From positions 1-64,000 of the forward strand of contig BPHE01000005.1 in assembly GCA_026003395.1 (NCBI GenBank): a stretch of 64,000 nucleotides of DNA, written 5' to 3'. This DNA is from Vicingaceae bacterium. GTDB taxonomy: Bacteria > Bacteroidota > Bacteroidia > Flavobacteriales_E > Vicingaceae. The notes beneath the pieces were generated by a model, which was not told the DNA's origin, did not search any database, and saw nothing but the letters and a program-made list of their open reading frames with translations. A program made the translations under genes and the position numbers. The stretch's first letter is position 1, and the number at the start of each line of letters is the position of its first letter. This document shows, one piece after another, positions 32,386 to 47,373 of the stretch.

Positions 32386-32478
32386 TTCACTCCCCCCACA
32401 CGCTGTCAATCACCCGTTTAATCTTCTCCTCGTAGGTTTTCACCATCTCCCGCAGGGTGTTGTTCAACTTCAGCTCGG
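32386..32478 (-). pseudogene. remnant of an hsdS 3' end
   Basis: Bases 32386-32456 are identical over 71 bases to the end of the hsdS gene (35875-35945), including its stop codon. The next roughly 22 bases (to about 32478) are similar but diverged. Read in the hsdS frame it encodes ELKLNNTLREMVKTYEEKIK and then RVIDSVWGE and stop; the complete gene has AERKVIDSLREM at the equivalent place. So this is the tail of a different hsdS allele, left beyond the SIR2-herA pair. It forms a direct repeat bracketing that pair, with a 3489-base offset. Confidence 0.9.
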
Positions 32479-34557
32479 ATGCTCATCATTATCTTTTCTT
32501 TCCTGCCAATCGTTGGCAATTTTTTCCCATTCAACGCTTCTTTCTTCTTTGTTGGTCCAAACATCCCAGAATTCAGGATCTTTTGATTTTGGTCTATGGC
32601 CTTCAGATAATTCATTCATCTCTACTAAAATTGGAATGGGTGTTGCCCAACCTAATAAAATTGCCTTACGAGAAGGTAAAACGGATAATTCATTAAGAAT
32701 CCCTCCCATTGTATCTGGCACCAATTTTTTTACCATTTCTTGATCTCTATCGCTTACAATGCGATGTAGTAAAAATGTATTGCATTGTGATAAGACTGTT
32801 TGCGATAGTTCTGAAGGTCTTTGTGAAGCTAAAACTAAACCAACACCAAATTTTCTTCCTTCTTTTGATATCTTTTCGAATATTTGAGTACATAATCGCT
32901 GAGCAGAAATATTATCATCATCCGTCTCATATCTTTTAATCAAATTATGGGCTTCATCCACTACTAAAACAGTTGGCAAGGTTTTATCATTTTCTTTTTT
33001 ATACCTATGATGGGATTCAAAAATAATACGAGCCATTACTGACACGACGAGATAAAGAATTTCGGAGGGTAAAAGCGAAAGATCAATTACTGTTATGGAA
33101 GGGTTATTGACATTATCCCCAATATAGTCATTTAACCATTGTTGTAATGTTAGTTCTTCTGCATTTTCACTATTAATGACGGATGCTATTCTTTTATCGG
33201 TAAATAAACTTTTTACACGCATTAAAAAGAAATCAAGATACTGTTGTTGGTTTGCTTCCTGAGATAATCTCTCTATATGGGCCAGGAAATCCTCGTTCTT
33301 GAAATATACCGGAGAATCTTCATCAGGACCTTCATAAGGTGTTAGTTTACCAATATCTTTCTCAGATTCTTCTAATATTCGTAAAAGCTGATTTACTTCC
33401 TCTAAAGAAAAAGCAGGGAAATATCCTTTATCATTTTTGGGTTTTGAATTAAAAATATCATTCAATTTTTTATGTAAGTCGCTGTAGATTTTATTGTAGT
33501 TTTCATCTTGTAATTTTTCATTGAAAGTTTCTAAAGATCTTTTAATGCTTTCAAGAAATTCCCCATAATTCTGTTTACCAGGGAATTGAGATAATTTAGC
33601 GCCATCTTTCTGAAAATTAATCAAACTAATTTTTAAACTTGTAAGAAAATTTTTAAACAAAATATTAATATTTTCTTCCTTTGATACTTCTGCGCTTTTT
33701 ATTTCCCTTAAAGCCCTTCTTAATATTGGCCTTTGCGTTTTTGCACTTGCCTGAGCAATAGAAGCCCATTCCCAGCTATTCCACATCCAGGATGGAACTT
33801 TAAGCTGTTTGAAATTTTCATCAACTCTAATCTTAACTGAATATCTTTTAACATTACCTAATTCCTTAAAGCATTCACCATATTCTCCATTTGGATCAAG
33901 TATGATAAAACGAGCATTAACGTTTTTATTTTCTTTATTATTTTCTTTTGTTTCCTTTTTTGCCGACTCGATAGACCACCTTACCAGACCGGCTACAGAA
34001 CAGGATTTTCCGCTGCCAGTATTCCCTAAAATGGCAAGATGCCTCCCAAATAATTTATCCGGGTCAATAAATACTGGAGCGTTGGCAGCGAGTGGTGAAT
34101 TGCCTATTTTTACTTTAGCATTACTATCTTTGTTTTGAACGATTGCTTTTAACTGTTCTTGACTCGGAATGATAACAATATCACCTACGGAGGGATAACT
34201 ATAAACCCCTCTTTCAATTTCATAACCATTTTCCTTTTCTTTTAGAATTCCAATGGGAGAAAGCGAAAGTTTTCTTAATGGGAAAGGTAAATCAACCAGA
34301 TCAAAATCTTTGTACCCTTTTCTCTTTGGATAGGCAGAATATTCAATACCTATCCAGGTTATCATTCCCACTAATGCGCCAGACTCATTAGGAATGAGAA
34401 GAAAACCATTGATTTTTGGGAATTGTTGAGGTATTCCGGTATTTAATGAAGTACTTAAAGGAGCATCAATTTCAAGAAGCACTTTAATTTCTTTTGGAGA
34501 AACAAATTCCACAGTTCCAACTGTTGTGTGCCTAATTTTTTCAAAATTGTTACTCAT
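32470..34557 (-). CDS. HerA-family ATPase of a SIR2-HerA defence pair
   Basis: The 695-residue protein is a HerA/FtsK-type hexameric DNA translocase. It has an N-terminal HAS-barrel-like domain (about 1-165), Walker A in LGNTGSGKSCSVAG at about 178-190, a long helical insert (about 250-430) and Walker B in VLVVDEAHNLI near 540. KEGRKFGVGLVLASQRPSEL is the sensor block. In SIR2-HerA antiphage systems (called Nezha in one study) the HerA ring assembles with SIR2 and controls its NAD hydrolysis. The final codons CCG AGC TGA align with hsdS-derived sequence, so the native end may have been replaced. SIR2 lies 12 bases upstream. Confidence 0.9.
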   Translation of the reverse strand: MSNNFEKIRHTTVGTVEFVSPKEIKVLLEIDAPLSTSLNTGIPQQFPKINGFLLIPNESGALVGMITWIGIEYSAYPKRKGYKDFDLVDLPFPLRKLSLSPIGILKEKENGYEIERGVYSYPSVGDIVIIPSQEQLKAIVQNKDSNAKVKIGNSPLAANAPVFIDPDKLFGRHLAILGNTGSGKSCSVAGLVRWSIESAKKETKENNKENKNVNARFIILDPNGEYGECFKELGNVKRYSVKIRVDENFKQLKVPSWMWNSWEWASIAQASAKTQRPILRRALREIKSAEVSKEENINILFKNFLTSLKISLINFQKDGAKLSQFPGKQNYGEFLESIKRSLETFNEKLQDENYNKIYSDLHKKLNDIFNSKPKNDKGYFPAFSLEEVNQLLRILEESEKDIGKLTPYEGPDEDSPVYFKNEDFLAHIERLSQEANQQQYLDFFLMRVKSLFTDKRIASVINSENAEELTLQQWLNDYIGDNVNNPSITVIDLSLLPSEILYLVVSVMARIIFESHHRYKKENDKTLPTVLVVDEAHNLIKRYETDDDNISAQRLCTQIFEKISKEGRKFGVGLVLASQRPSELSQTVLSQCNTFLLHRIVSDRDQEMVKKLVPDTMGGILNELSVLPSRKAILLGWATPIPILVEMNELSEGHRPKSKDPEFWDVWTNKEERSVEWEKIANDWQERKDNDEHPS

Positions 34558-34569
34558 TGTCTTTTCCAG

Positions 34570-35847
34570 CTATACAGTTACATTATTATCTTGATTCTCA
34601 TTAGTTACATTACCTGATTTTCTTTTCTCTAATATTTTTGCCTGTCTATCGGTTATCCTATCAATAGCAGGTTTAGGTAAATAATAGTTCGTCAGGTTAT
34701 GAATATCTGCCAATTCTTTCCCTATTAATAAAGTTAACTGAGATTCATTACATCTTTCGATAAAATTCTGAATCCTATTATTTGCTAAATCATAAGAAAT
34801 GATCACCAAATGAGTCGAAGGAATCGTTAGCATATCTTTAATAATTCTATTTATGTGAGAATCTCCAAATCCATAACCATAGGTAACCAACACGGAATTA
34901 GGCCTACAAATAGCAGTAGAAAAATCGCGAAATAATTCAGAATATGGGAAAAAACTGGTTTCTATGGCTTTGGCAGAATTTGGATAAATAACCACTCGAT
35001 CATAAGGGTTGTCAAAATATTTATCATCAACTTCAGATCCAAACGGCAATGGGTTTTTAACAATTTGTCCGTTTTCAAACTGCCAGTCAATAGAACCGTG
35101 TAACTTAGTATAACGAACAACACCTTCTACATATCTTGGTTCACCTCTGATGCCGGGAGGATTGTAATGATAATCCAGATCTACCCTATGAAACCTCATA
35201 ATTGGTTTAAGCTTTCCAATAAATCGATCTAAAGTAAGTATGCCTGCCTCATCTAACCCGAATTCAATAAATCTATCGTAGTTTGTCGTAAAAATATTCA
35301 ATCTATCTCTTGTCGCAGTTCTTGTTGAAAAGCTCATGAGAAATTTTTCAAGTAATAATAATGAATTTTTCTTCTTAATTTCGACAAAAAATTGATTTTC
35401 GTTTTTTATTACTAAATTTAATAATTCTTGCAATTTCTTATTAATTTCTTTTTTAAGCTGTTTAGATTTTTTACTTTTTTTCTGAATTTCCAATCCTTTG
35501 AGAAGCTCAATAGATATTCTAATATCATCTTCAAAATTAGCTTCTCCTCTTCCCATGTGATTTGCTTCTTCGGATGCTTTTTGCTTGATTAAATCTCTGT
35601 AAGTTCCTTCAAATTCAATTCTTGGCATCATCGAGTTTTTACCTGTTAATGCAATAGGCAAACCACTGCCAACAAGCAGAGAGAGGTGTTCGCTCTGGAA
35701 AACAGCTGTCAACCAGGGTTCAATTTTTTCACGAATTTTTTGTCTGTTAAATTCGGTTTCTTTTTTGTACTCATCTGAGTCGACATCAATTTGTTCATTT
35801 GAAATAAACAAAATGTTTTCTTTGCTAAAGTCAATTTTATTTTCCAT
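34570..35847 (-). CDS. SIR2-family NAD-hydrolysing defence protein
   Basis: With the ATG at 35847 the product has 425 residues. The SIR2 fold marks are LLVGSGLP at 57-64 for NAD binding, TTNYDRFIE at 188-196 and TKLHGSIDW at 248-255, whose His250 is the expected catalytic residue. YGYGFGDSHINRII closes the domain. Members of this group deplete NAD+ on phage infection to abort it; here the partner is HerA encoded directly downstream. An upstream in-frame start at 35898 would lie inside hsdS and adds no conserved sequence. The start is 28 bases past the hsdS stop, so it can share the hsd transcript. Confidence 0.88.
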   Translation of the reverse strand: MENKIDFSKENILFISNEQIDVDSDEYKKETEFNRQKIREKIEPWLTAVFQSEHLSLLVGSGLPIALTGKNSMMPRIEFEGTYRDLIKQKASEEANHMGRGEANFEDDIRISIELLKGLEIQKKSKKSKQLKKEINKKLQELLNLVIKNENQFFVEIKKKNSLLLLEKFLMSFSTRTATRDRLNIFTTNYDRFIEFGLDEAGILTLDRFIGKLKPIMRFHRVDLDYHYNPPGIRGEPRYVEGVVRYTKLHGSIDWQFENGQIVKNPLPFGSEVDDKYFDNPYDRVVIYPNSAKAIETSFFPYSELFRDFSTAICRPNSVLVTYGYGFGDSHINRIIKDMLTIPSTHLVIISYDLANNRIQNFIERCNESQLTLLIGKELADIHNLTNYYLPKPAIDRITDRQAKILEKRKSGNVTNENQDNNVTV

Positions 35848-35875
35848 AGTTATCTCTTTTCTTTCTTTTATTACT

Positions 35876-37081
35876 TCACTCCCCCCACACGCTGTCAATC
35901 ACCCGTTTAATCTTCTCCTCGTAGGTTTTCACCATCTCCCGCAGGCTGTCTATCACCTTCCGCTCGGCTTCGATTTTATCGACAATACGCTGCTGGACTT
36001 CAAGGGGCGGAAGGGGGATTATTAAATTTGCCACATCATTAGTATTTATACTGGGATATGCTCCTTTGCCCATTTTAATTGTCATTTGTTTTACAGTTGT
36101 CTCAGAAAAAATACAAGTATAAAGATATTCAGGAATTATGTTTTCTTTACTTCTTAATACAGCGAAACCTGTTGAAGCGATTGATTTTTTTGGTAATTCT
36201 TTAAGTAGTGCAAAAGCCTTTAAATTTGGACGAACAGTTGATAATAAAATATCATTTTCTTTTATTATTCTTCTTGCACGGCTCGGGGCATTTTTAGTCC
36301 AAATTTTGTTTTCAAACGATATTTTTCCTGTTCCATTCTCTACAGACGATATGTCAATATAAACAATTTCAGATTCACCAAACAAATCATATGGATCGGC
36401 GGATTCAGGATTTATCTTACACACCTCCCCAAACCTCACCATCGGCCACCCTTCGGCAAGTTCTTCCTGCTTTTCGGGGTGCTCGGCAAGGTAGGTTTTG
36501 AGTTCTTCTTCCAGGTAGGTTTCTACATCAGGCTTCCAGGCATCTATCACCTGCCTGCAGCCGTCGATAAGCTTCTGATAGCCTTCTATCTCTGCCACTA
36601 TCTCCTGCTGCACTTCAAGAGGTGGGAGGGGGATTTGGAACTCATATAAAATTTTTGAGTTTAAGTTATTTATATTAACACCACTAATTTGAGTTCTTAA
36701 ATATACATTAAACTTAGAATTATTTAAATTTAAAAATAGATATTTTGAGTTTAGAATCTCATTATTTAAAGTTCTGATAGCTCCCATAAAACCGCCAAAA
36801 TAATAATCAATATCATTGTCAACGAATGCAACTTTTCCAATATGCTCTTTACTACCACTTGCTGAAACAGATAAAAATATCACCTTTTTTTAACTTCTTA
36901 TTTTCATTTAGATTTACTTTTTTAGATATTTGTTCTAACTTCATCAAAATTCAAGGTGCCATCTAAATTGATATTATTTGCCCTTAAAACAGGATAGCCA
37001 TTTTCTTTCAACTTCATCTTCTTTTGAATACGTTATTCCCCTTATCAATTCACACACCTCCCCCAGCTTCACCATCGGCCA
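35876..37081 (-). pseudogene. hsdS: type I specificity region HsdS, fused to HsdM, three frameshifts
   Basis: HsdS recognises the DNA target. It has two target-recognition domains, each opening with a repeat (WPMVKLGEVCEL from 37081, WPMVRFGEVCKI near 36460) and ending with IPLPPLEVQQ and a long helix. The first domain is broken three times within about 135 bases (37006-37008, 36929-36931, 36873-36877). Dropping one base at each restores EVEENGYPVLRANN, RTISKKVNLNEN and KKGDILSVSASG. No stop separates it from HsdM, so the intact product is probably one HsdM-HsdS polypeptide of about 865 residues, though the Met at 37075 could restart translation. The conserved helices are visibly richer in G+C than the recognition domains. 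Confidence 0.85.
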
Positions 37082-38482
37082 TTTCTGGTGTTTGCGTTTT
37101 TCTACCACCCGGTATCTATCGCCGGTGAGGTTGTATTCGCCGTTTTCGGCAAGTTTTTCTTTCTTTACCAGCAGGGCAGAGCAGGGTTTGTCTTCTGGCT
37201 TAAATTCATCCGCTTTGCCATTTTTTACCTTTTCTATATATTCATGGATAACCGTGAGGGCATCGGGCAGGTCGTTTTTATCAATCGGCCGGCGCTGGGC
37301 ACCGAGGTCAAAGCCGTCGTTTTCTATCTTTATGAACAGAATGCTATCGGTCTTTCCCGCAAGTGCTTTATCCATCAACAGGATTGAGGTTTTCACGCCT
37401 GAGTAGGGCTGAAAAACTCCGGCGGGTAGCGAGACCACCGCATACAGATAATTTTCCACCAGCATCTTGCGCAATTGCTTGTAAGCATTGGCACTCTGAA
37501 AGATGATGCCTTCGGGGACAATCACCGCAGCCCTTCCGGTGGGCGTGAGATGCTCGGCGATGTAATCGACAAAAAGCACTTCGCTACGTTTGCTCTGTAC
37601 GCTGAATCTTTTGTGCGGTTTGATACCTCCCTTTGGGGTCATAAAGGGTGGATTGGCAAGGATGACATCGGCATATTCGTTCCATCGGTCTTCGCTGGTC
37701 AAGGTGTCGTACTCGTATATCTGAGGGTTTACAAAGCCGTGCAGATACATATTGACAAGCGAAAGTCGCACCATATCGGGCGAAATGTCGTAGCCCTTGA
37801 AATTGGCAAGCAGTTTTTTCTTTTCTTCGGTAGTGAGCAGATCTCCTCTTCCATTACCGTTTTGTGAACGATATTTTTCGGAAGTGTTTTCGCGAATGAT
37901 GTATTTATATGCCGAAATTAAAAATCCGGCTGTGCCACAGGCAGGATCAAGGATGAGTTCGTTTTTCTTCGGGCTAACAATTTCAACCATAAAATCGATG
38001 ATATGGCGTGGGGTGCGAAATTGCCCGGCATCGCCCTGACTGCCCAGCACCAGCAGCAGATACTCAAAGGCATCGCCCAGACGCTCGGAATGGTCGTAGA
38101 TGAATTCGTTGATGGTTTTCAGAAAGAGTTTGAGCGTTTCGGGGTCGCGGTATGGCAGATAGGCATTCTTGAAGATATTGCGGAATAGCTCGGGCAGGTT
38201 TGGGTTCTGACTCATCCGTGTGATGGCCTCTGCATAGAGATTGAGCATTTCATGGCCACCCAGACGGGGGTTAAAAATATTGCTCCAGCTATATTTTTCA
38301 TACTCTCCGACAAAAAAGAAACGTTTGCCGCCCATCTCAACGGACTCTCTGTCCATGTCGTCCATAAATTTGTAGATGAGGGCAATGGTAATCTGTTCAA
38401 CCTGACTTTTGGGATCAGGTACCTTCCCTACCAGTATATCCCGGGCGGTGTCGATTCTTCTTTTGGTTTCAGCATCAAGCAT
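36974..38482 (-). CDS. hsdM: type I restriction-modification N6-adenine methyltransferase HsdM
   Basis: HsdM methylates adenine with S-adenosylmethionine. It has an N-terminal helical domain (DILVGKVPDPKSQVEQITIA), SAM motif I in LDPACGTAGFLIS at 178-190 and the catalytic NPPF at 277-280. The last 35 residues before the present stop already belong to the HsdS region and run out of frame. Compared with hsdR and the SIR2-herA pair, this gene is plainly richer in G+C, a sign that it arrived separately or was exchanged. It is separated from hsdR by a transposase and a palindrome array, so it probably needs its own promoter. Confidence 0.93.
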   Translation of the reverse strand: MLDAETKRRIDTARDILVGKVPDPKSQVEQITIALIYKFMDDMDRESVEMGGKRFFFVGEYEKYSWSNIFNPRLGGHEMLNLYAEAITRMSQNPNLPELFRNIFKNAYLPYRDPETLKLFLKTINEFIYDHSERLGDAFEYLLLVLGSQGDAGQFRTPRHIIDFMVEIVSPKKNELILDPACGTAGFLISAYKYIIRENTSEKYRSQNGNGRGDLLTTEEKKKLLANFKGYDISPDMVRLSLVNMYLHGFVNPQIYEYDTLTSEDRWNEYADVILANPPFMTPKGGIKPHKRFSVQSKRSEVLFVDYIAEHLTPTGRAAVIVPEGIIFQSANAYKQLRKMLVENYLYAVVSLPAGVFQPYSGVKTSILLMDKALAGKTDSILFIKIENDGFDLGAQRRPIDKNDLPDALTVIHEYIEKVKNGKADEFKPEDKPCSALLVKKEKLAENGEYNLTGDRYRVVEKRKHQKWPMVKLGEVCELIRGITYSKEDEVERKWLSCFKGK

Positions 38483-38583
38483 GATAATTCGTTTTTGTTA
38501 TGAAAAAAATGTATCGAAATTTTTAATTTTTTTCGACATTTCAAAATAAAGGTGTAGAAAATTTTTGTTTTTTTCGACATGGA
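38483..38583 (-). promoter_or_regulatory. hsdM leader with inverted and direct repeats of a TTTCGACAT motif
   Basis: The leader is nearly all A and T. ATGTATCGAAA at 38509-38519 and TTTCGACAT at 38531-38539 form an imperfect inverted repeat. A further direct copy TTTCGACAT is at 38572-38580, 41 bases on. The placement just before the hsdM start would suit an operator. No controller gene is visible, so this is only a suggestion. Confidence 0.35.
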
Positions 38584-40179
38584 TAACATAATGCCGTCCC
38601 TAACGGGACTAGCGTAACATCGCTCCTGACGGGTTGCTACCATAATGTCGCCCCTTCGGGGCTGCTATATTATCGTTTCTGATTTTTGTTTCTGGCAAAA
38701 TGTCGTTTCCCATTTCTACCATAATGTCGCCCCTACGGGGCTGGCTTTCATAAACACAACCATTTTAGCTCCGTAGGAGCGAAATTATGGTAACTCAATG
38801 CTCAATGCTACCATAATGTCGCCCCTACGGGGCTAGCTAAATGTCGTTTCACATTTCTACCAAAATGTCGTCCCTATGGGGCTGCTATATTATCGTTTCT
38901 GATTTTTGTTTCTGGCAAAATGTCGTTTTCCATTTCTACCATAATGTCGCCCCTTCGGGGCTATTTATTAAACACAACCATTTTAGCTCCGTAGGAGCGA
39001 GATTATGGTAACACTTAGCTTATCACGTCCCATTTTAGCTCCGTAGGAGCGAAATTATGGTAACTCAATGCTACCATATTGTCGCCCCTATGGGGCTACC
39101 ATATTATCGTTTCTGATTTCTGTTTCTACCAAAATGTCGTCCCTAACGGGACTAGCGTAACATCGCTCCTGACGGGTTGCTACCATAATGTCGTCCCTTG
39201 CGGGACTTCCATATTATTGTTTCTGATTTTTATTTCTACCAAAATGTCGCCCCTATGGGGCTACCATATTATCGTTTCTGATTTCTGTTTCTACCAAAAT
39301 GTCGTCCCTAACGGGACTAGCGTAACATCGCTCCTGTTGGGTTGCTACCATAATATCGCCCCTACGGGGCTGGCAAAATGTCTTTTCTGATTTTGATTTT
39401 TACCAAAATGCCGCCCCTTCGGGGCTTTCATAAACACAACCATTTTAGCTCCGTAGGATATAGATCTTCACGTCCAAATTTAGCTCCGTAGGAGCGAGAT
39501 TATGGTAACAGAATCTCATCACCCACATCTTTAGCTCCGTAGGAGCGGCCTTATGGAAACTCAATGCTACCATATTGTCGCCCCTATGGGGCTACCATAT
39601 TATCGTTTCTGATTTCTGTTTCTACCAAAATGCCGTCCCTAACGGGACTAGCGTAACATCGCTCCTGACGGGTTGCTACCATAATGTCGTCCCTATGGGG
39701 CTGCCATATCATTGTTTCTGATTTTTATTTCTACCAAAATGTCGCCCCTATGGGGCTGCTATATTATCGTTTCTGATTTTTGTTTCTACCATAATATCGC
39801 CCCATCGGGGCTGGCATTTATCGTTTCTGATTTCTGTTTCTACCAAAATGTCGCCCCTTCGGGGCTATTTATTAAACACAACCATTTTAGCTCCGTAGGA
39901 GCGAGATTATGGTAACACTTAGCTTATCACGTCCCATTTTAGCTCCGTAGGAGCGAAATTATGGTAACATATAGCTCATCACCCACATCTTTAGCTCCGT
40001 GGGAGCGGCCTTATGGTAAATCAATGCTGACATATTGCCGCCCCTTCGGGGCTTTCATAAACACAACCATTTTAGCTCCGTAGGATATAGATCTTCACGT
40101 CCAAATTTAGCTCCGTAGGAGCGAGATTATGGTAACAGAATCTCATCACCCACATCTTTAGCTCCGTAGGAGCGGCCTT
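38584..40179. repeat. REP-like palindrome array, about 36 units in both orientations
   Basis: The basic unit reads ACCATAATGTCGCCCCTACG followed by GGGCT, with a hairpin core GCCCC-loop-GGGGC. Variants have CGTCCC/GGGAC cores or a shorter ATCGCTCCTGACGGGT form. Inverted units read TTTTAGCTCCGTAGGAGCGA and end in ATTATGGTAAC, the reverse complement of the same plan with CTCC/GGAG stems. I count about 36 units over 1.6 kb, spaced by recurring linkers such as TATTATCGTTTCTGATTT. Larger segments are duplicated inside the array: 39409-39552 equals 40036-40179 exactly (144 bases). It abuts the 3' end of the transposase gene, as REP arrays mobilised by a TnpA_REP (RAYT) enzyme do. Confidence 0.9.
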
Positions 40180-40186
40180 GTGAACA

Positions 40187-40651
40187 TTATATATCATAAA
40201 ATTCAAAAACAAATTCATTTTTATACTCAATTTCAAACCTTCTCAACAATTCCAAATATTCTTCCCTAAATGTCTTATTCTTGTGATGCTTTTCTTGATT
40301 AATGATATAATTTATCACAGTGTCTCGTTGTGACCGAGAATACGAAAATGCCCCATAGCCCTCCTGCCAATTAAATTTACCCCTCAAAAATCCCTGTTCA
40401 TTTATCCACTTTGATGAACTTGCTTTTACCATCCTCATCAAATCCGATATTTTTATATCCGGTTTTAATTCAAAAAACACATGAACATGATCCTTCCATC
40501 CACCAACGGCTAATGGAAAAACATTATTCTTTTTTAGGATACCATAAATATACCTAAACAAATCATCCCTAAAATGATCTGCCAAAATATTTTCACGTCC
40601 TTTTACTGCAAATACACAATGAATATTTATTTGAGAATAAGTATTTGCCAT
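40187..40651 (-). CDS. REP-associated tyrosine transposase (Y1, IS200-like)
   Basis: The 154-residue HUH single-strand endonuclease has the metal-binding HVH at His55-His57 (DHVHVFFEL), a downstream EGYGAFSYS with the likely catalytic Tyr104, and the QIN(I/Y)H-type start SQINIHCVFAVKG. IS200/RAYT enzymes cut and join single-stranded DNA next to hairpins. The adjoining array of palindromes makes a TnpA_REP role more likely than an autonomous IS200. It starts 3 bases after hsdR stops, on the same strand, so it is translated as part of the hsd operon. Confidence 0.88.
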   Translation of the reverse strand: MANTYSQINIHCVFAVKGRENILADHFRDDLFRYIYGILKKNNVFPLAVGGWKDHVHVFFELKPDIKISDLMRMVKASSSKWINEQGFLRGKFNWQEGYGAFSYSRSQRDTVINYIINQEKHHKNKTFREEYLELLRRFEIEYKNEFVFEFYDI

Positions 40652-40654
40652 AGA

Positions 40655-43177
40655 TTAAGCCACAATTTTATTTAATGGTACATTGTCCTTGATATATTCC
40701 GGTATTATTTTTCTAAGTTCAGGTGGTAATTTTTTAAAGGCCTCACCGTAAGGCGATAAATTAAGTATGGCAAAATTACCACTATCAATAATTTGTCTGA
40801 ATTCTGAATCAAGAATATAAGCTTTAAAAACAGTTTTTGCATATTCAAAATATTCTTCTTTGGGCAAATAGCGACTGTCGAATTTATCAAACTCTTCTTC
40901 CAAAATTTCATCCCTTGTTTTAAAATATGGAATTATACCAAGTATTTTTTCGATAATTTCTTTCATCGAGACCTGCCGGTCAATATTAATTGCTTTATTC
41001 AGTTTTTCGAGTGTAAAAAATTCCTCCGGTTTGTTCAAAACATGTGATTCGAGAAATTCGAGCAATTCGTTCCATCGTTCTGCTTCAACATAGGATTTCA
41101 CTTCCGGGTGATTCAAAATTTTTTGCTCAAATTTTTGAAAATACATTCGGTCTATTTTCATGCCTTCATATCCTATGGATTTTTCCGATAAGGCCATCAA
41201 CGGGTCGAGTTGGGCTGTTTGGTATATCTCAATTGAAGGTATAATAATAGATTCCTTGTCTTTTCCACTTTTAACGGGCGGTAACTTTATCACTTCGTCG
41301 TAATTATATTTTTCTTCAAAATATTCGCAATTTGCAAAAAAGTCAAACATTTTGAAGTGAATTTTCTCTATCTTGCCAAATTCATTTTTGATTTTTGGGT
41401 CGGTAATTTCATTTGAAAAATTGTGTTTTCGGGTACCTCGACCTTTTATCTGTACAAATTCGGTGGGAGAGAAAATTGGGCGCATCAAACATAGGTTAAG
41501 AATATCGGGGCAATCATATCCTGTGGTCATCATACCAACCGTGACACATACACGGGTTTTGCTAGTGTTATAATAAGGTAAAAAATTGGCTGATCCACAC
41601 AGATTGTTATTTGTAAAATTAATCGTCAATTGTTGAGCATCCGGTATACTCGAAGTTACCTGCACAGCGAAATCGGATTGATATTTGCCGGGAAACATTT
41701 CATCAGCCAATTGATTCAAGATTTGTGTGATTTTTGCCGCATGATTTTGAGAAACACAAAAAACGATTGTTTTGCCTATCTCACCGCTGACAGGATCGCG
41801 AAGAGCATTTTGCATAAACACTTTGCAAAAGGTTCTGTTGGTGTCTTCAGAGAAAAAATTTTTTTCGAAATCTCTTTGATCAAAACTATTTTGTTGGTCT
41901 TCGCCATCTTCATTGGTAGTTGTAACAATATAACCTTGATCCGACAATAATTGTGTGGTGATTTCTGTGCGAGCATCTGCCACAATGGGATTGACCAGAT
42001 AACCGTCTTTTACCCCATCGATCAATGAATAACGAAAGGTTGGTTCGCTGTTTTCGCAACCAAAGGTCTTATAGGTATCCAACAATAATCTTCTCTCCAG
42101 CTGACGGGGGTCATTTTCACCAAGATCAGAGATATCAATATTTTTGAGGTAATTTTTGGGTGTAGCGGTAAGTCCTAATTTATAGCCAATAAAATATTCA
42201 AATACCGCCCTGCTGTTACCTCCAATACTACGGTGGGCTTCATCAGATATAACCAGGTCAAAATCATCCGGTGCAAAGATTCTTTTATATCTATTTTTAG
42301 AAAGAAAAGTTTGAATTGTAGAGACCACAATTTCGGCTTTTTGCCAATCATCTCTGTTTTCTTTATAAATAACGGTTGTGTAATCATTTTTTAAATAATC
42401 TCTGAAAGCTTTGTATGCTTGATTTTCCAACTCAAGTCTATCTACCAAAAACAAAACACGCCGGGCATTACCTGTCCGGAGAAACAACTTGATAACAGCA
42501 GCAGATACAAGTGTTTTACCTGTGCCTGTAGCCATTTCAAAAAGAAAGCGGTCTTTACCTTCCTTTACGGCATTTTGAATAGATCGAACTGCTTCCAATT
42601 GGTAATTTCTTAAAAAACGAAGTTTATATTGTGCAATATATTGAGAGCGAGTATTTTCGTTAATGTAAGACGGGTCTTTGAAATAATCCGGTTTCTGGGT
42701 GAGTACGATATAATCTTCATTCACTTCTTCATTGACAAGCCGATTTTTGTCGGGAACAAACCCGGCATAACCTTTCAATGCTTCGAGAGTAGGAAAAGAT
42801 TTAATTACTTGCGGATTGCCACGTTCAATGTCCCATAGATAATGAATATTGCCATTAGAAAGAATAACAAAACGACATTTGAGCGTCTGTGCATATCGTC
42901 TTGCCTGCTCTTTACCAAACAGAGGATTTTTATTTTCTGCTTTGGCTTCGAGAACAGCCAGTGGAAAACCGTTATTATCTAAAAATAAAAAATCAACATA
43001 ACCATTTTTTGTATGTTCAAAATCGTCTCCAAATGCGTTTAGTTGTTGCTCGGTAATTTTAATATTGTTTTCTAAAAGTACATTGGCTTTTCCATTTTCC
43101 GAATCAATTAACCTCCATCCTGCCTCTTCCAGAAAGCGGTTAATTTTTATCCGGGCCTGAGCTTCTTTATTTGACAT
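40655..43177 (-). CDS. hsdR: type I restriction endonuclease subunit HsdR
   Basis: HsdR moves along and cuts DNA not methylated by HsdM. It has the N-terminal PD-(D/E)xK nuclease with Asp62 and EAK at 77-79, then SF2 helicase motifs: ATGTGKT at 216-222, DEAH at 312-315, LTATPKNY and IKGRGTRKH near 580. At 840 residues it is at the short end of the family and lacks a long C-terminal extension, like the Bacteroidota HsdR of fused-MS systems. Base composition resembles the housekeeping genes, unlike hsdM. It is the first gene of the defence region; a 334-base A+T-rich gap lies upstream. Confidence 0.93.
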   Translation of the reverse strand: MSNKEAQARIKINRFLEEAGWRLIDSENGKANVLLENNIKITEQQLNAFGDDFEHTKNGYVDFLFLDNNGFPLAVLEAKAENKNPLFGKEQARRYAQTLKCRFVILSNGNIHYLWDIERGNPQVIKSFPTLEALKGYAGFVPDKNRLVNEEVNEDYIVLTQKPDYFKDPSYINENTRSQYIAQYKLRFLRNYQLEAVRSIQNAVKEGKDRFLFEMATGTGKTLVSAAVIKLFLRTGNARRVLFLVDRLELENQAYKAFRDYLKNDYTTVIYKENRDDWQKAEIVVSTIQTFLSKNRYKRIFAPDDFDLVISDEAHRSIGGNSRAVFEYFIGYKLGLTATPKNYLKNIDISDLGENDPRQLERRLLLDTYKTFGCENSEPTFRYSLIDGVKDGYLVNPIVADARTEITTQLLSDQGYIVTTTNEDGEDQQNSFDQRDFEKNFFSEDTNRTFCKVFMQNALRDPVSGEIGKTIVFCVSQNHAAKITQILNQLADEMFPGKYQSDFAVQVTSSIPDAQQLTINFTNNNLCGSANFLPYYNTSKTRVCVTVGMMTTGYDCPDILNLCLMRPIFSPTEFVQIKGRGTRKHNFSNEITDPKIKNEFGKIEKIHFKMFDFFANCEYFEEKYNYDEVIKLPPVKSGKDKESIIIPSIEIYQTAQLDPLMALSEKSIGYEGMKIDRMYFQKFEQKILNHPEVKSYVEAERWNELLEFLESHVLNKPEEFFTLEKLNKAINIDRQVSMKEIIEKILGIIPYFKTRDEILEEEFDKFDSRYLPKEEYFEYAKTVFKAYILDSEFRQIIDSGNFAILNLSPYGEAFKKLPPELRKIIPEYIKDNVPLNKIVA

Positions 43178-43886: not shown

Positions 43887-45255
43887 ATGGCTGTTTCAAA
43901 AGATACGATTATTGCTCCCGCCACACATTACGGCCATGCTGCCATTCATCTGATACGAATCAGCGGACCGGATGCCATCAATATTTCACAAAAATTTTTT
44001 AAAGGGAAAAAAAAGATTGTGCCCGGAAAATGCACGTCAGGCAATTTATGGAGAAATATCACATCCAACAGATGGTGTGATAGATCAAGTAATTATCACT
44101 TGTTTTGTAGAACCTTTTTCGTTCACGGGAGAAAACATGGTGGAAATTTCATGTCATGGTTCTCCCTTTATTGTCGATAAAATCATCTCTCTTTATCTAG
44201 AAAATGGTGTAAGATTAGCCCATCCCGGTGAATTTACACAAAGAGCTTTTTTAAATGGAAAATTGGATTTGAGTCAGGCGGAAGCTATCGGCGATCTGAT
44301 TTATGCCGAAAATGCAATTTCACATAAATTGGCATTAAAACAATTGAAAGGAAATTTTTCAAATTTAATTGACCAATTTCGTCAAAATATTATCCATTTT
44401 GCCTCTCTTTTGGAATTGGAACTAGATTTTTCTGAAGAGGATGTGGAGTTTGCCAACCGCATGGAACTCATCAGCCAATTGGAAGATATCATCAGACAAT
44501 TACATAAGATAAGAGAATCGTCGAAATATAAGAAGTGGTTGCAAAAAGGATTTCCTGTTGCCATATTAGGACGGCCCAATGCCGGGAAATCTACGCTGCT
44601 CAATGCCCTCATCAAAGAAGAAAGGGCCATTGTGACGCCTATTCCCGGCACTACAAGAGACACCATCGAAGAAACAATTACACTCCATGATCTTACGTTG
44701 AGAATTATTGACACTGCCGGTATCCGAAAAACAGATGATCCGGTGGAAAAAATCGGCATTGACCGATCTTTTCAAAAAGCAGCAGAGGCATTTGTCATAC
44801 TTTATCTCTATGATGCGGCTGAAACAAGCCCTGAAGATGCCACGCAAGATTTGACAACCATCCGAAACATCAATCCTGAAGCTGTGACATTGGTCATAGC
44901 TAATAAAATGGATACAATCAATGATGACGGCAAAATTCCTCCGGAACATTTTAAAATTAGTGCCCAAAACGAACAAGATATTGACCATTTGAAAGAATTG
45001 CTATACGAAAAATTAAAATCATTGCTTCCCGGCAGTGATGATATCTATTTGGTCAATCAGCGTCAAAACGAGGCATTGCAAAAAGCCGAAGACGCTCTTC
45101 AAAGAGCAAAAACTAATTTGCTATCGGACATTAGCCATGAATTTGTGGCCATGGATTTGCGCGAATCTATCCATCACCTGTCTCTTATAACCGGAAAAAT
45201 ATCTACTGACGATCTATTGGAAAATATTTTCAGAAATTTTTGTATTGGAAAGTAA
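43887..45255 (+). pseudogene. mnmE: tRNA modification GTPase MnmE (TrmE), one frameshift
   Basis: MnmE with MnmG installs the 5-carboxymethylaminomethyl group on U34 of some tRNAs. It starts KDTIIAPAT, with IRISGPDA close behind, then has ENMVEISCHGSP and GEFTQRAFLNGKLDLSQAEA in the N-terminal domain. The G domain has GRPNAGKSTLLNAL, the TPIPGTTRD K-loop region, DTAG and NKMD, and the protein ends in the catalytic CIGK. One surplus base in the A8 run 44007-44014 (or the A4 at 44027-44030) breaks the frame in the N-terminal domain. Repaired it has about 456 residues. Since mnmE is widely conserved, an error in the sequence is the best explanation. Confidence 0.9.
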
Positions 45256-45665: not shown

Positions 45666-46334
45666 TTATTTGATGCGGAAAATATTTTTCAGATAACGGA
45701 AATAATCTTTTCTTACGTCTCTATTGGTAAAAAGCAACTTTATCATTTTCCACAATGATGGCTTATCGTATTCGGCCACAATTTTTAACTCTTCTTTTGA
45801 TTGTTCGGCTTTATGATGATTTTTTCCATTTATACCGGCCAATTTATCTGCTTTTTCGAAATATTGTGTTGCAAATTCTTTTCTGCCCAAATTTTCATAC
45901 AAAAGCCCTAAGTTATTGTAAACAATAGCGTCATCAGGGTCCAATTCGAGCGCTTTTTCGTAATCCTTGATAGCGTCCTCGATCATGCCATAAGAGGCCT
46001 TGATGTATGCCCTGCCGGAGTACCTGTAAGGATTTCCGGGTTGCAACTCCACGGCTTTATCTAGATCGTTCAAACAAAGATCGCGCTGTTTCATATGAAA
46101 GTAAGTTACCGCCCTTTCAAAATATGCATCCACATGAACATCATTCAACTCAATGGCTTTGCTTAAATCTTCTACTGATTTTTGCCATTGTTGCATACGT
46201 CGATAAACGATGGCTCTTTTCACCAATAAATCGGGCAAGTAATTATTCCCTTCGTTGATGAGTTGGTTGATCAGGGTCAAGAGTTCTTGAAATTTTTCTT
46301 CTCTTAGATATTGCTCAAATAGTTGATTTTCCAT
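45666..46334 (-). CDS. tetratricopeptide repeat protein
   Basis: The 222-residue protein contains about four TPR units between residues 35 and 175, including HVDAYFERAVTYFHMKQRDL and AIVYNNLGLLYENLGRKEFA. There is no signal peptide, so it is probably a cytosolic scaffold for protein contacts. The C-terminal 45 residues are basic and not repeat-like. Its start overlaps the pyrD stop by about 20 bases, indicating translational coupling. The partner is unknown. Confidence 0.85.
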   Translation of the reverse strand: MENQLFEQYLREEKFQELLTLINQLINEGNNYLPDLLVKRAIVYRRMQQWQKSVEDLSKAIELNDVHVDAYFERAVTYFHMKQRDLCLNDLDKAVELQPGNPYRYSGRAYIKASYGMIEDAIKDYEKALELDPDDAIVYNNLGLLYENLGRKEFATQYFEKADKLAGINGKNHHKAEQSKEELKIVAEYDKPSLWKMIKLLFTNRDVRKDYFRYLKNIFRIK

Positions 46335-47373
46335 ACCTGGACGTTTTTTTTAATATATCGTTTAATAGTGCCGGTCCTTGAAAAACAAAACCGGTGTATA
46401 TTTGAACCAAATCTGCGCCGGCATCCAGTTTGCTGCAAGCGTCGTTGCCTGAAAAAATTCCGCCACATCCAATCAAAATCAACCTTTCACCTGCATATTT
46501 TTTTATTTCACGCAAAAGATGGGTCGATCGTTGGAACAATGGCTTTCCACTAAGACCACCGGATCCTATCTTTTCCAGTTTTTGAACGGGAGTTTTTAAT
46601 CCTGTTCGGTCAAGGGTAGTATTGGAAACGACCAATCCGTCGATGTTCAAACGAATGGCCGCATCAGCCATTTCTATTGCTTGATCTTCGTTCAGATCAG
46701 GAGCAATTTTCACAAAAATAGGTTTGGTTTTTTGTTTATTTTTTTCTATTGCCCGGTAAACATTTACAAGTTCTTTCAAAAAATTTTCGTTTTGCAAATC
46801 CCGCAATCCCGGTGTATTGGGAGAACTAATATGTTAACAGTAAAGTAATCAACAAAATCAAACAATTTTTCAAAACATATTTTATAATCGTCAATCGCTT
46901 TTTCATTGGGAGTTGTTTTGTTTTTTCCAATATTTCCGCCGATGACCAACTTTCCCCTTTTTGCGGTAGTTTTTTAATCTTTCCACCACAACATCTACAC
47001 CATCGTTGTTGAATCCCATACGGTTTATCATGGCTTCGTCGGAGGGCAAGCGAAACAAACGAGGTTTGGGGTTACCTTTTTGTGGCCTGGGAGTGACAGT
47101 ACCTATTTCTACATGTCCAAAACCAAGTGCTTCCCATACATGGAGATATTGGGCATTTTTGTCAAAACCGGCAGCCAATCCCAAATGATTGTCGAAAGTT
47201 AAATTTTTGATTGAAAGAGGTTTATCGTAGTAATTGTTTTTGAATTTTTTTTTGATTAGATGTTTCAAAAAGGGAGTATTGACAGCCCATGACATTATTC
47301 CCATCGTCAGATGATGGGCGTATTCCGGATACAATAAAAACAATAATGGACGAAGGAAAAATCTGTAAAACAT
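46315..47373 (-). pseudogene. pyrD: dihydroorotate dehydrogenase (class 2), two frameshifts
   Basis: Class 2 PyrD oxidises dihydroorotate with quinone in pyrimidine synthesis at the inner membrane. It has the N-terminal membrane-contact helices (FYRFFLRPLLFLLYPEYAHH), GLAAGFDKNA, the block GTVTPRPQKGNPKPRLFRLP, NRMGFNNDG, then FVKIAPDLNEDQ, SNTT and IGCGGIFSGNDA. Two breaks occur. One extra base near 46954-46957 gives [14 protein letters not shown] when removed. A two-base AT duplication near 46828-46832 gives [13 protein letters not shown] when removed. Repaired it has about 351 residues. An essential-type gene with two neat repairs argues for sequence error. Confidence 0.88.

Follow-up and report, generated by a model that had tools for sequence, protein, structure and literature searches.

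The window analyzed here, a 64,000-nt stretch of a Vicingaceae bacterium genome (assembly GCA_026003395.1, contig BPHE01000005.1, positions 1 to 64,000), carries a type I restriction-modification (R-M) operon that contains a small transposase gene and a dense array of palindromes. On the minus strand, the order is hsdR, 3 nt, tnpA, the 1.6-kb palindrome array, ∼100 nt with two operator-like repeats, hsdM, and hsdS. The features are as follows:

35876 to 36883, minus strand: hsdS part of the HsdM-HsdS gene (Pfam Methylase_S), in frame with hsdM, broken by stops
36974 to 38482, minus strand: hsdM, type I methyltransferase (Pfam N6_Mtase), the downstream host gene
38503 to 38580, minus strand: two 37-nt operator-like repeats, ATGTCGAAAAAAA..., separating hsdM from the array (repeat family D8)
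38584 to 40186, no strand assigned: palindromic unit array, ∼30 short units in both orientations, 13- to 14-nt hairpins with a 12-nt directional tail
38927 to 39064, no strand assigned: 138-nt block, second copy at 39831 to 39968, 98% identical (repeat family D7)
39404 to 39555, no strand assigned: 152-nt block, second copy at 40031 to 40182, 98% identical (repeat family D6)
40110 to 40122, minus strand: second unit, 51 nt beyond the first
40161 to 40173, minus strand: first unit after tnpA, GCTCC-TAC-GGAGC, 16 nt past the last codon
40187 to 40651, minus strand: tnpA, Y1/HUH single-strand DNA transposase of 154 aa, class 1 subclass 1.2 type (Pfam PF01797)
40655 to 43177, minus strand: hsdR, type I restriction subunit (Pfam ResIII, HSDR_N), the upstream host gene, whose stop codon and the start codon of tnpA are 3 nt apart

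In a preliminary description of this locus, palindromic units in both orientations, joined to a Y1 transposase with HUH residues, were said to split hsdR from hsdM. The coordinates, the Pfam match, and the conserved HUH residues confirm this claim. Insertion at the hsdR/hsdM junction is supported by an empty relative, locus L093, in which hsdR and hsdM (75 and 93% identical, respectively) are separated by a 230-bp gap only, and both the Y1 gene and the array are missing. Many other relatives likewise have the R-M operon without tnpA. In the window, hsdM starts ∼100 nt past the far end of the array. The operator-like repeats in between are clear palindromes in L093 (CATGTCGAAA..TTTCGACATG, two copies) and may be the methylase's own control region. 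HsdM and HsdS form a single reading frame of 816 to 871 aa in relatives; in the window, this frame is broken by stops at A/T runs (36881 to 36974). Since mnmE (43887 to 45255) and pyrD (46315 to 47373) are also split in the window, indel errors in the assembly are a likelier cause than decay of the gene, and we set the break aside as a biological feature.

The tnpA gene is intact, and its product matches Pfam Y1_Tnp (PF01797; E = 2e-25). The HUH residues D54-H55-V56-H57 and Y115/Q119 are conserved across 32 relatives, in which the motifs DHVH, W95-Q96, and Y115-x3-Q119-x2-HH are invariant or nearly so. The earlier label of RAYT was ruled out: TnpA scored 22.1 bits against the REP-associated transposase model (NF047646; cutoff of 80) and has YIINQEKHH (YxxxQxxHH in the family) where RAYTs, or TnpA_REP, have the class 2 Y---NP motif. 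In contrast, the curated IS200/IS605 model NF033573 was passed (71.8 bits; cutoff of 55). Consistent with this result, the solved folds nearest to the AlphaFold2 model of TnpA (pLDDT 89.8) were ISDra2 and IS608 TnpA (Foldseek; 2xma, E = 1e-8), with the solved REP transposase 4er8 ranking only 30 among the fold matches. The class 1 Y---Q--HH motif, together with DH[IV]H and WQ, places TnpA in subclass 1.2 of TnpA-Y1, a group from Bacteroidetes and Cyanobacteria without an assigned role in the classification of Quentin et al. (2018, PMC6006769). Members of this subclass resemble TnpA in length (∼150 aa), in the YIxNQxxHH motif, in their occurrence in Bacteroidetes, and in their low copy number; tnpA is present once in its own genome, and its family was found in 165 of 395 phylum genomes at 1 to 9 copies each. 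The gene is under purifying selection (dN/dS of 0.14 and 0.10 versus its two nearest relatives). At the DNA level, tnpA is 90 to 95% identical to its counterparts in loci L011 and L012, while silent sites of the adjoining hsdR are saturated up to the stop codon or the last 60 codons in the same comparison. The two genes therefore have different histories, and their junction marks a recombination or insertion boundary.

Within the array, we scored 30 tailed or clear hairpins, 28 of them with a perfect 5-bp stem (simple shuffles of the array, mean of 0.96 and maximum of 5). With ∼6 further degraded or truncated copies, the total comes near the 36 units first reported. The unit consensus, A-GCYCC-GTA-GGRGC-GACATTATGGTA (in stem-loop and tail form, GCTCC-GTA-GGAGC+GACATTATGGTAG), is directional; 9 units point to the plus strand and 19 to the minus strand. 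As originally described, the array lies on one side only, downstream of tnpA, and the upstream hairpin pair is absent from the window lineage. Its first unit is matched in position in L011 and L012 (+16 nt; +8 to +25 nt in most relatives) and, together with the second unit, represents the conserved downstream pair, whose ∼50-nt spacing recurs among relatives. The two duplicated blocks of 98% identity indicate that the array grew by block (segmental) duplication, and it is the largest of the subclass 1.2 hairpin system among the loci found. The arrays of L011 and L012 differ in length and make-up, although the genes beside them are 91 to 94% identical. The predicted RNA fold of the 997 nt nearest tnpA is strong (−350 kcal/mol; z of −12.5 versus 20 shuffles). 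Intrinsic terminators or promoters within the array were near shuffle level, and an Rfam search of the array gave chance-level miRNA matches only, arising from the palindromes.

Neither REPs nor, generally, terminal hairpins were found for subclass 1.2 in the published survey (PMC6006769). Here, we quantified hairpins (perfect stems only: GC-rich, 5 bp, with a 3- to 4-nt loop) around 109 relatives, comprising 80 loci from named genomes, which are enriched for Chryseobacterium, 28 from an even phylum draw, and the window. At least one hairpin lay within 150 nt of tnpA in 104 of the 109, whereas the remaining sequence of these loci has a background density of ∼0.05 per 600 nt. The commonest type is 13 nt long, with a 5-bp stem, a 3-nt loop, and a GA..T.tt tail that faces inward on both sides. 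Upstream, a hairpin lies at about −14 to −30 nt and another ∼50 nt before it; downstream, the first lies at roughly +8 to +25 nt and another ∼50 nt on. In relatives, tnpA is flanked on both sides by hairpin pairs with inward tails: 115 of 139 upstream units point their tail toward tnpA (10 point away), as do 100 of 119 downstream units (2 point away). The arms differ while pairing persists (GCTCC, GTCCC, GCCCC, ACCCC, GGCGC, GCCTC, and ACCGC, among others); at homologous positions, at least 10 distinct arm sequences (14 by count) pair perfectly. These hairpins correct the description of subclass 1.2, not the membership of TnpA in it. A sister Y1 group (37% identical), collected starting from L094, often has palindromes of its own, such as GGGCT-TTA-GCCC types. 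Arrays also occur beyond R-M loci (e.g., L050, L119, and L124). At two loci (L014, 2910 to 4200; L050, 4848 to 6662), the flanks of tnpA are mutual direct repeats, as if tnpA lay inside a duplicated array block.

The preliminary description had also labeled the palindromes REPs, that is, dispersed repeats. In the 2.54-Mb genome of the window (97.7% complete; 33 contigs), a pattern search allowing up to 3 mismatches returned 23 unit matches, all inside the array, a result named beforehand as refuting this label. A reversed control pattern gave no match in the whole genome, and BLAST of the array against the genome returned the self-match only. Among 46 genomes of the taxonomic family, the array is exclusive to that of the window; two of the other 45 had any unit match, one chance-like match each. 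Matches this confined rule out a dispersed REP family in the window genome or its taxonomic family. The canonical GT[AG]G foot of REPs, sought at the 5′ side of the hairpin, was found in only 21 of 258 units near relatives. A few other genomes hold many copies of the unit. Two that do, G091 (26 units on more than one contig) and G148 (18 units), both encode the transposase family, and multicontig units such as those of G091 indicate that spread can occur.

Whether the units depend on the transposase across genomes received a divided answer. We scored 395 phylum genomes for the unit pattern (213 matches versus 3 for the control pattern) and for the transposase family. The pattern was present in 40 of 165 genomes with the family versus 22 of 230 without it (odds ratio of 3.0; P = 7e-5), and units were 4.7-fold commoner where the family was present (0.99 versus 0.21 per genome), as the idea of dependence predicts. 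However, the 22 unit-positive genomes without the family, many of which belong to one genus, do not fit it. The window-type pattern was absent from 125 of the 165 tnpA-positive genomes; much of this absence is expected because stems differ between clades.

Several relatives of tnpA reside in type I R-M operons. The order hsdR-tnpA-array-hsdM recurs in L012 (0.4-kb array) and L015 (four or five units), and hsdR-tnpA is visible up to the contig ends in L011 and L016. Locus L094 is an independent case, with hsdR, a distant Y1 gene, seven hairpins of another sequence, and hsdM; in L014, tnpA lies between hsdM and hsdS. In the even phylum draw, 3 of 26 tnpA contexts, those of L116, L117, and L123, were type I R-M operons (in L123, 10 units separate hsdS from tnpA), compared to ∼0.09 expected from HsdS domain density (Poisson P of about 1e-4 to 5e-4 under rough assumptions). 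The hsd label requires about six changes on the tnpA gene tree, many branches of which are weakly supported. At L017 and L033, the last ∼20 hsdR codons remain just upstream of tnpA although hsdM is not found downstream, a relic of a former hsdR-tnpA order. Array size did not differ between R-M and other contexts (P = 0.37), and we rejected the idea that arrays are an R-M-specific feature.

R-M operons are not the main habitat of these genes. In Chryseobacterium and Flavobacterium, tnpA follows fadB in 41 of 43 loci and directly precedes fadA in 40 of these; it is vertically inherited in both genera, so recent mobility is unsupported there. Across 30 further Chryseobacterium genomes, the fadB/fadA slot holds tnpA in 20 (one copy decayed), a 23S rRNA intervening sequence protein (IVP)-type four-helix gene in 6, and neither in 4. 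Pfam confirmed the identity of one of the six as PF05635. Members of PF05635 also share the restriction slot with tnpA, being found between hsdR and hsdM in L096 (with a similar protein, judged by eye, in L097), but they are unrelated four-helix bundle proteins with other flanking repeats. The six in the fadB-fadA gap (L174, L182, L183, L194, L195, and L198) have their own short inverted flanks, e.g., TGTAAAATGTAAAAAGTATT. In four Chryseobacterium loci without tnpA (L186, L188, L197, and L199), the same gap contains another palindromic repeat, TTTGTCATTC.GAAGGAATC...AGCATGACAAA. Over independent contexts, the gene upstream of tnpA is co-directional in 34 of 39 (P = 2e-6), and the downstream gene in 24 of 37 (not significant).

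The element shares features with several known systems and differs from each in others. As in the RAYT REPtron (PMC6006769, PMC8266576), a single gene sits between inverted palindromes, the units pair as REPINs or BIMEs do, and short 5-bp stems like those of the window occur in Marinomonas REPs (PMC8266576). However, the RAYT transposase belongs to class 2 (Y...NP) and TnpA to class 1 (Y...Q), and the stems here lack the GT[AG]G foot, in addition to the units being undispersed in the window genome. The IS200/IS605 elements IS608 and ISDra2 provide the closest fold, the curated family model, the HUH/Y1 chemistry, and subterminal hairpins. Unlike the distinct left and right ends of those elements, which occur as multicopy, near-identical insertions, the ends of tnpA relatives are like pairs in inverted orientation; tnpA is also single copy in the window genome, is vertically inherited in Chryseobacterium, and has no tnpB adjoining it in the window. 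The difference from subclass 1.2 as published lies in the hairpin pairs that flank nearly every gene tested and in the arrays.

The most probable explanation, in our view, is that the window contains a long-lived REPtron-like element within an operon, consisting of a subclass 1.2 Y1 HUH transposase and its own recognition palindromes, which have been amplified locally. Supporting this idea are the low dN/dS, the near-universal flanking hairpins, their tail direction, the class 1 motifs and folds, the block duplications, and the co-directional upstream gene, as well as the differences between the L011 and L012 arrays, the arrays outside R-M operons, and the excess of units in genomes with the family. 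As far as sequence can directly support them, the association, geometry, direction, purifying selection, block duplication, and local confinement are secure. IS200 and REP transposases cut and join single strands at hairpins (PMC8266576, PMC6006769). From its predicted activity, TnpA would bind its hairpins as single-stranded DNA and cut and rejoin there, and such reactions could seed extra units beside its own gene. Recombination between units would then duplicate blocks, doing the bulk of array growth. The element may persist 3′ of a co-directional gene by read-through transcription at little cost and may travel with horizontally exchanged R-M operons. If it alters the balance between restriction and modification at all, it probably does so incidentally, and a regulatory role of the array in restriction is unsupported. 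Counting against a REPtron-like element are the many tnpA-positive genomes without the unit pattern, the unit-positive genomes without the family, the vertical inheritance in Chryseobacterium and Flavobacterium, and the fact that block duplication alone, whether by slippage or by recombination, could account for the growth of the array with no contribution from the transposase.

This last point is the core of an alternative that we consider unlikely, in which an ordinary IS200-type insertion was followed by neutral tandem repetition of chance hairpins (slippage or unequal recombination), with no role for the transposase. Large block duplications at 98% identity and the fast variation between L011 and L012 are as this alternative predicts, but it does not account for the recurrence, in 104 of 109 relatives, of hairpins that differ in stem sequence but keep their place and orientation, nor for a single-copy tnpA under purifying selection, unlike a multicopy IS. 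We give still less credence to the original proposal that RNA hairpins of a REP/RAYT element uncouple nuclease from methyltransferase expression. The strong predicted fold, the position of the array between hsdR and hsdM, and the conserved operator-like region that hsdM retains after the array are consistent with uncoupling. Nevertheless, besides the confinement of the units and the failed RAYT model, terminator-like sites occur at chance level, arrays are no larger in R-M contexts, and the 230-bp gap of the empty L093 already includes the operator-like region, so hsdM may have been controlled separately before the element arrived. Least plausible is a domesticated transposase that serves the operon, e.g., by editing single strands at hairpins to vary restriction: a dN/dS of about 0.1, the recurrence in type I R-M operons, and the distant Y1 gene with other hairpins at the hsdR/hsdM junction of L094 favor it, but most relatives lie beside other genes (predominantly after fadB in Chryseobacterium and Flavobacterium), one copy has decayed in the fadB/fadA slot that other species leave without tnpA, and the R-M operon often exists without the gene.

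Beyond the REPtron-like element of the window, we tentatively suggest, as a generalization that may well not hold, that subclass 1.2 and its sister Y1 group, each with its own palindromes, constitute a class of intraoperon passengers. Such passengers would take up positions 3′ of co-directional genes, in many cases between two genes of an operon, share the hsdR/hsdM and fadB/fadA slots with 23S-IVP genes, favor type I R-M operons, and amplify hairpins locally rather than dispersing them. The protein group was already known, but a search of the open-access literature returned no account of palindromes accompanying subclass 1.2, of their inward and paired arrangement, of a large array at a single locus, or of the habit of occupying operon slots. 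Nor did it return any description of Y1 genes within hsd operons. Subclass 1.2 HUH transposases were not known to have a DNA partner. If 5-bp triloop hairpins are that partner, a substrate open to testing becomes available for many Bacteroidota genes, and class 1, to which the true IS200 transposases are close, would include REP-like systems, a point relevant to the origin of REPtrons. The array, confined to a single locus and still varied, offers a simple place to study how palindrome arrays grow. Metabolic and restriction operons alike are occupied at recurring slots, which suggests that a family of small passenger genes finds a niche at operon junctions.

Downstream of hsdS, the window encodes a SIR2-HerA defense pair (32390 to 35970), flanked by 93-bp copies of the hsdS tail (35875 to 35967 and 32386 to 32478; 94%). 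A corresponding hsdS-tail repeat surrounds two unknown genes (675 and 422 aa) in L012, and a HamA-like gene and a helicase follow HsdM-HsdS in genome G205 (L208). Judged from this gene content, the region after hsdS is a swappable defense slot.
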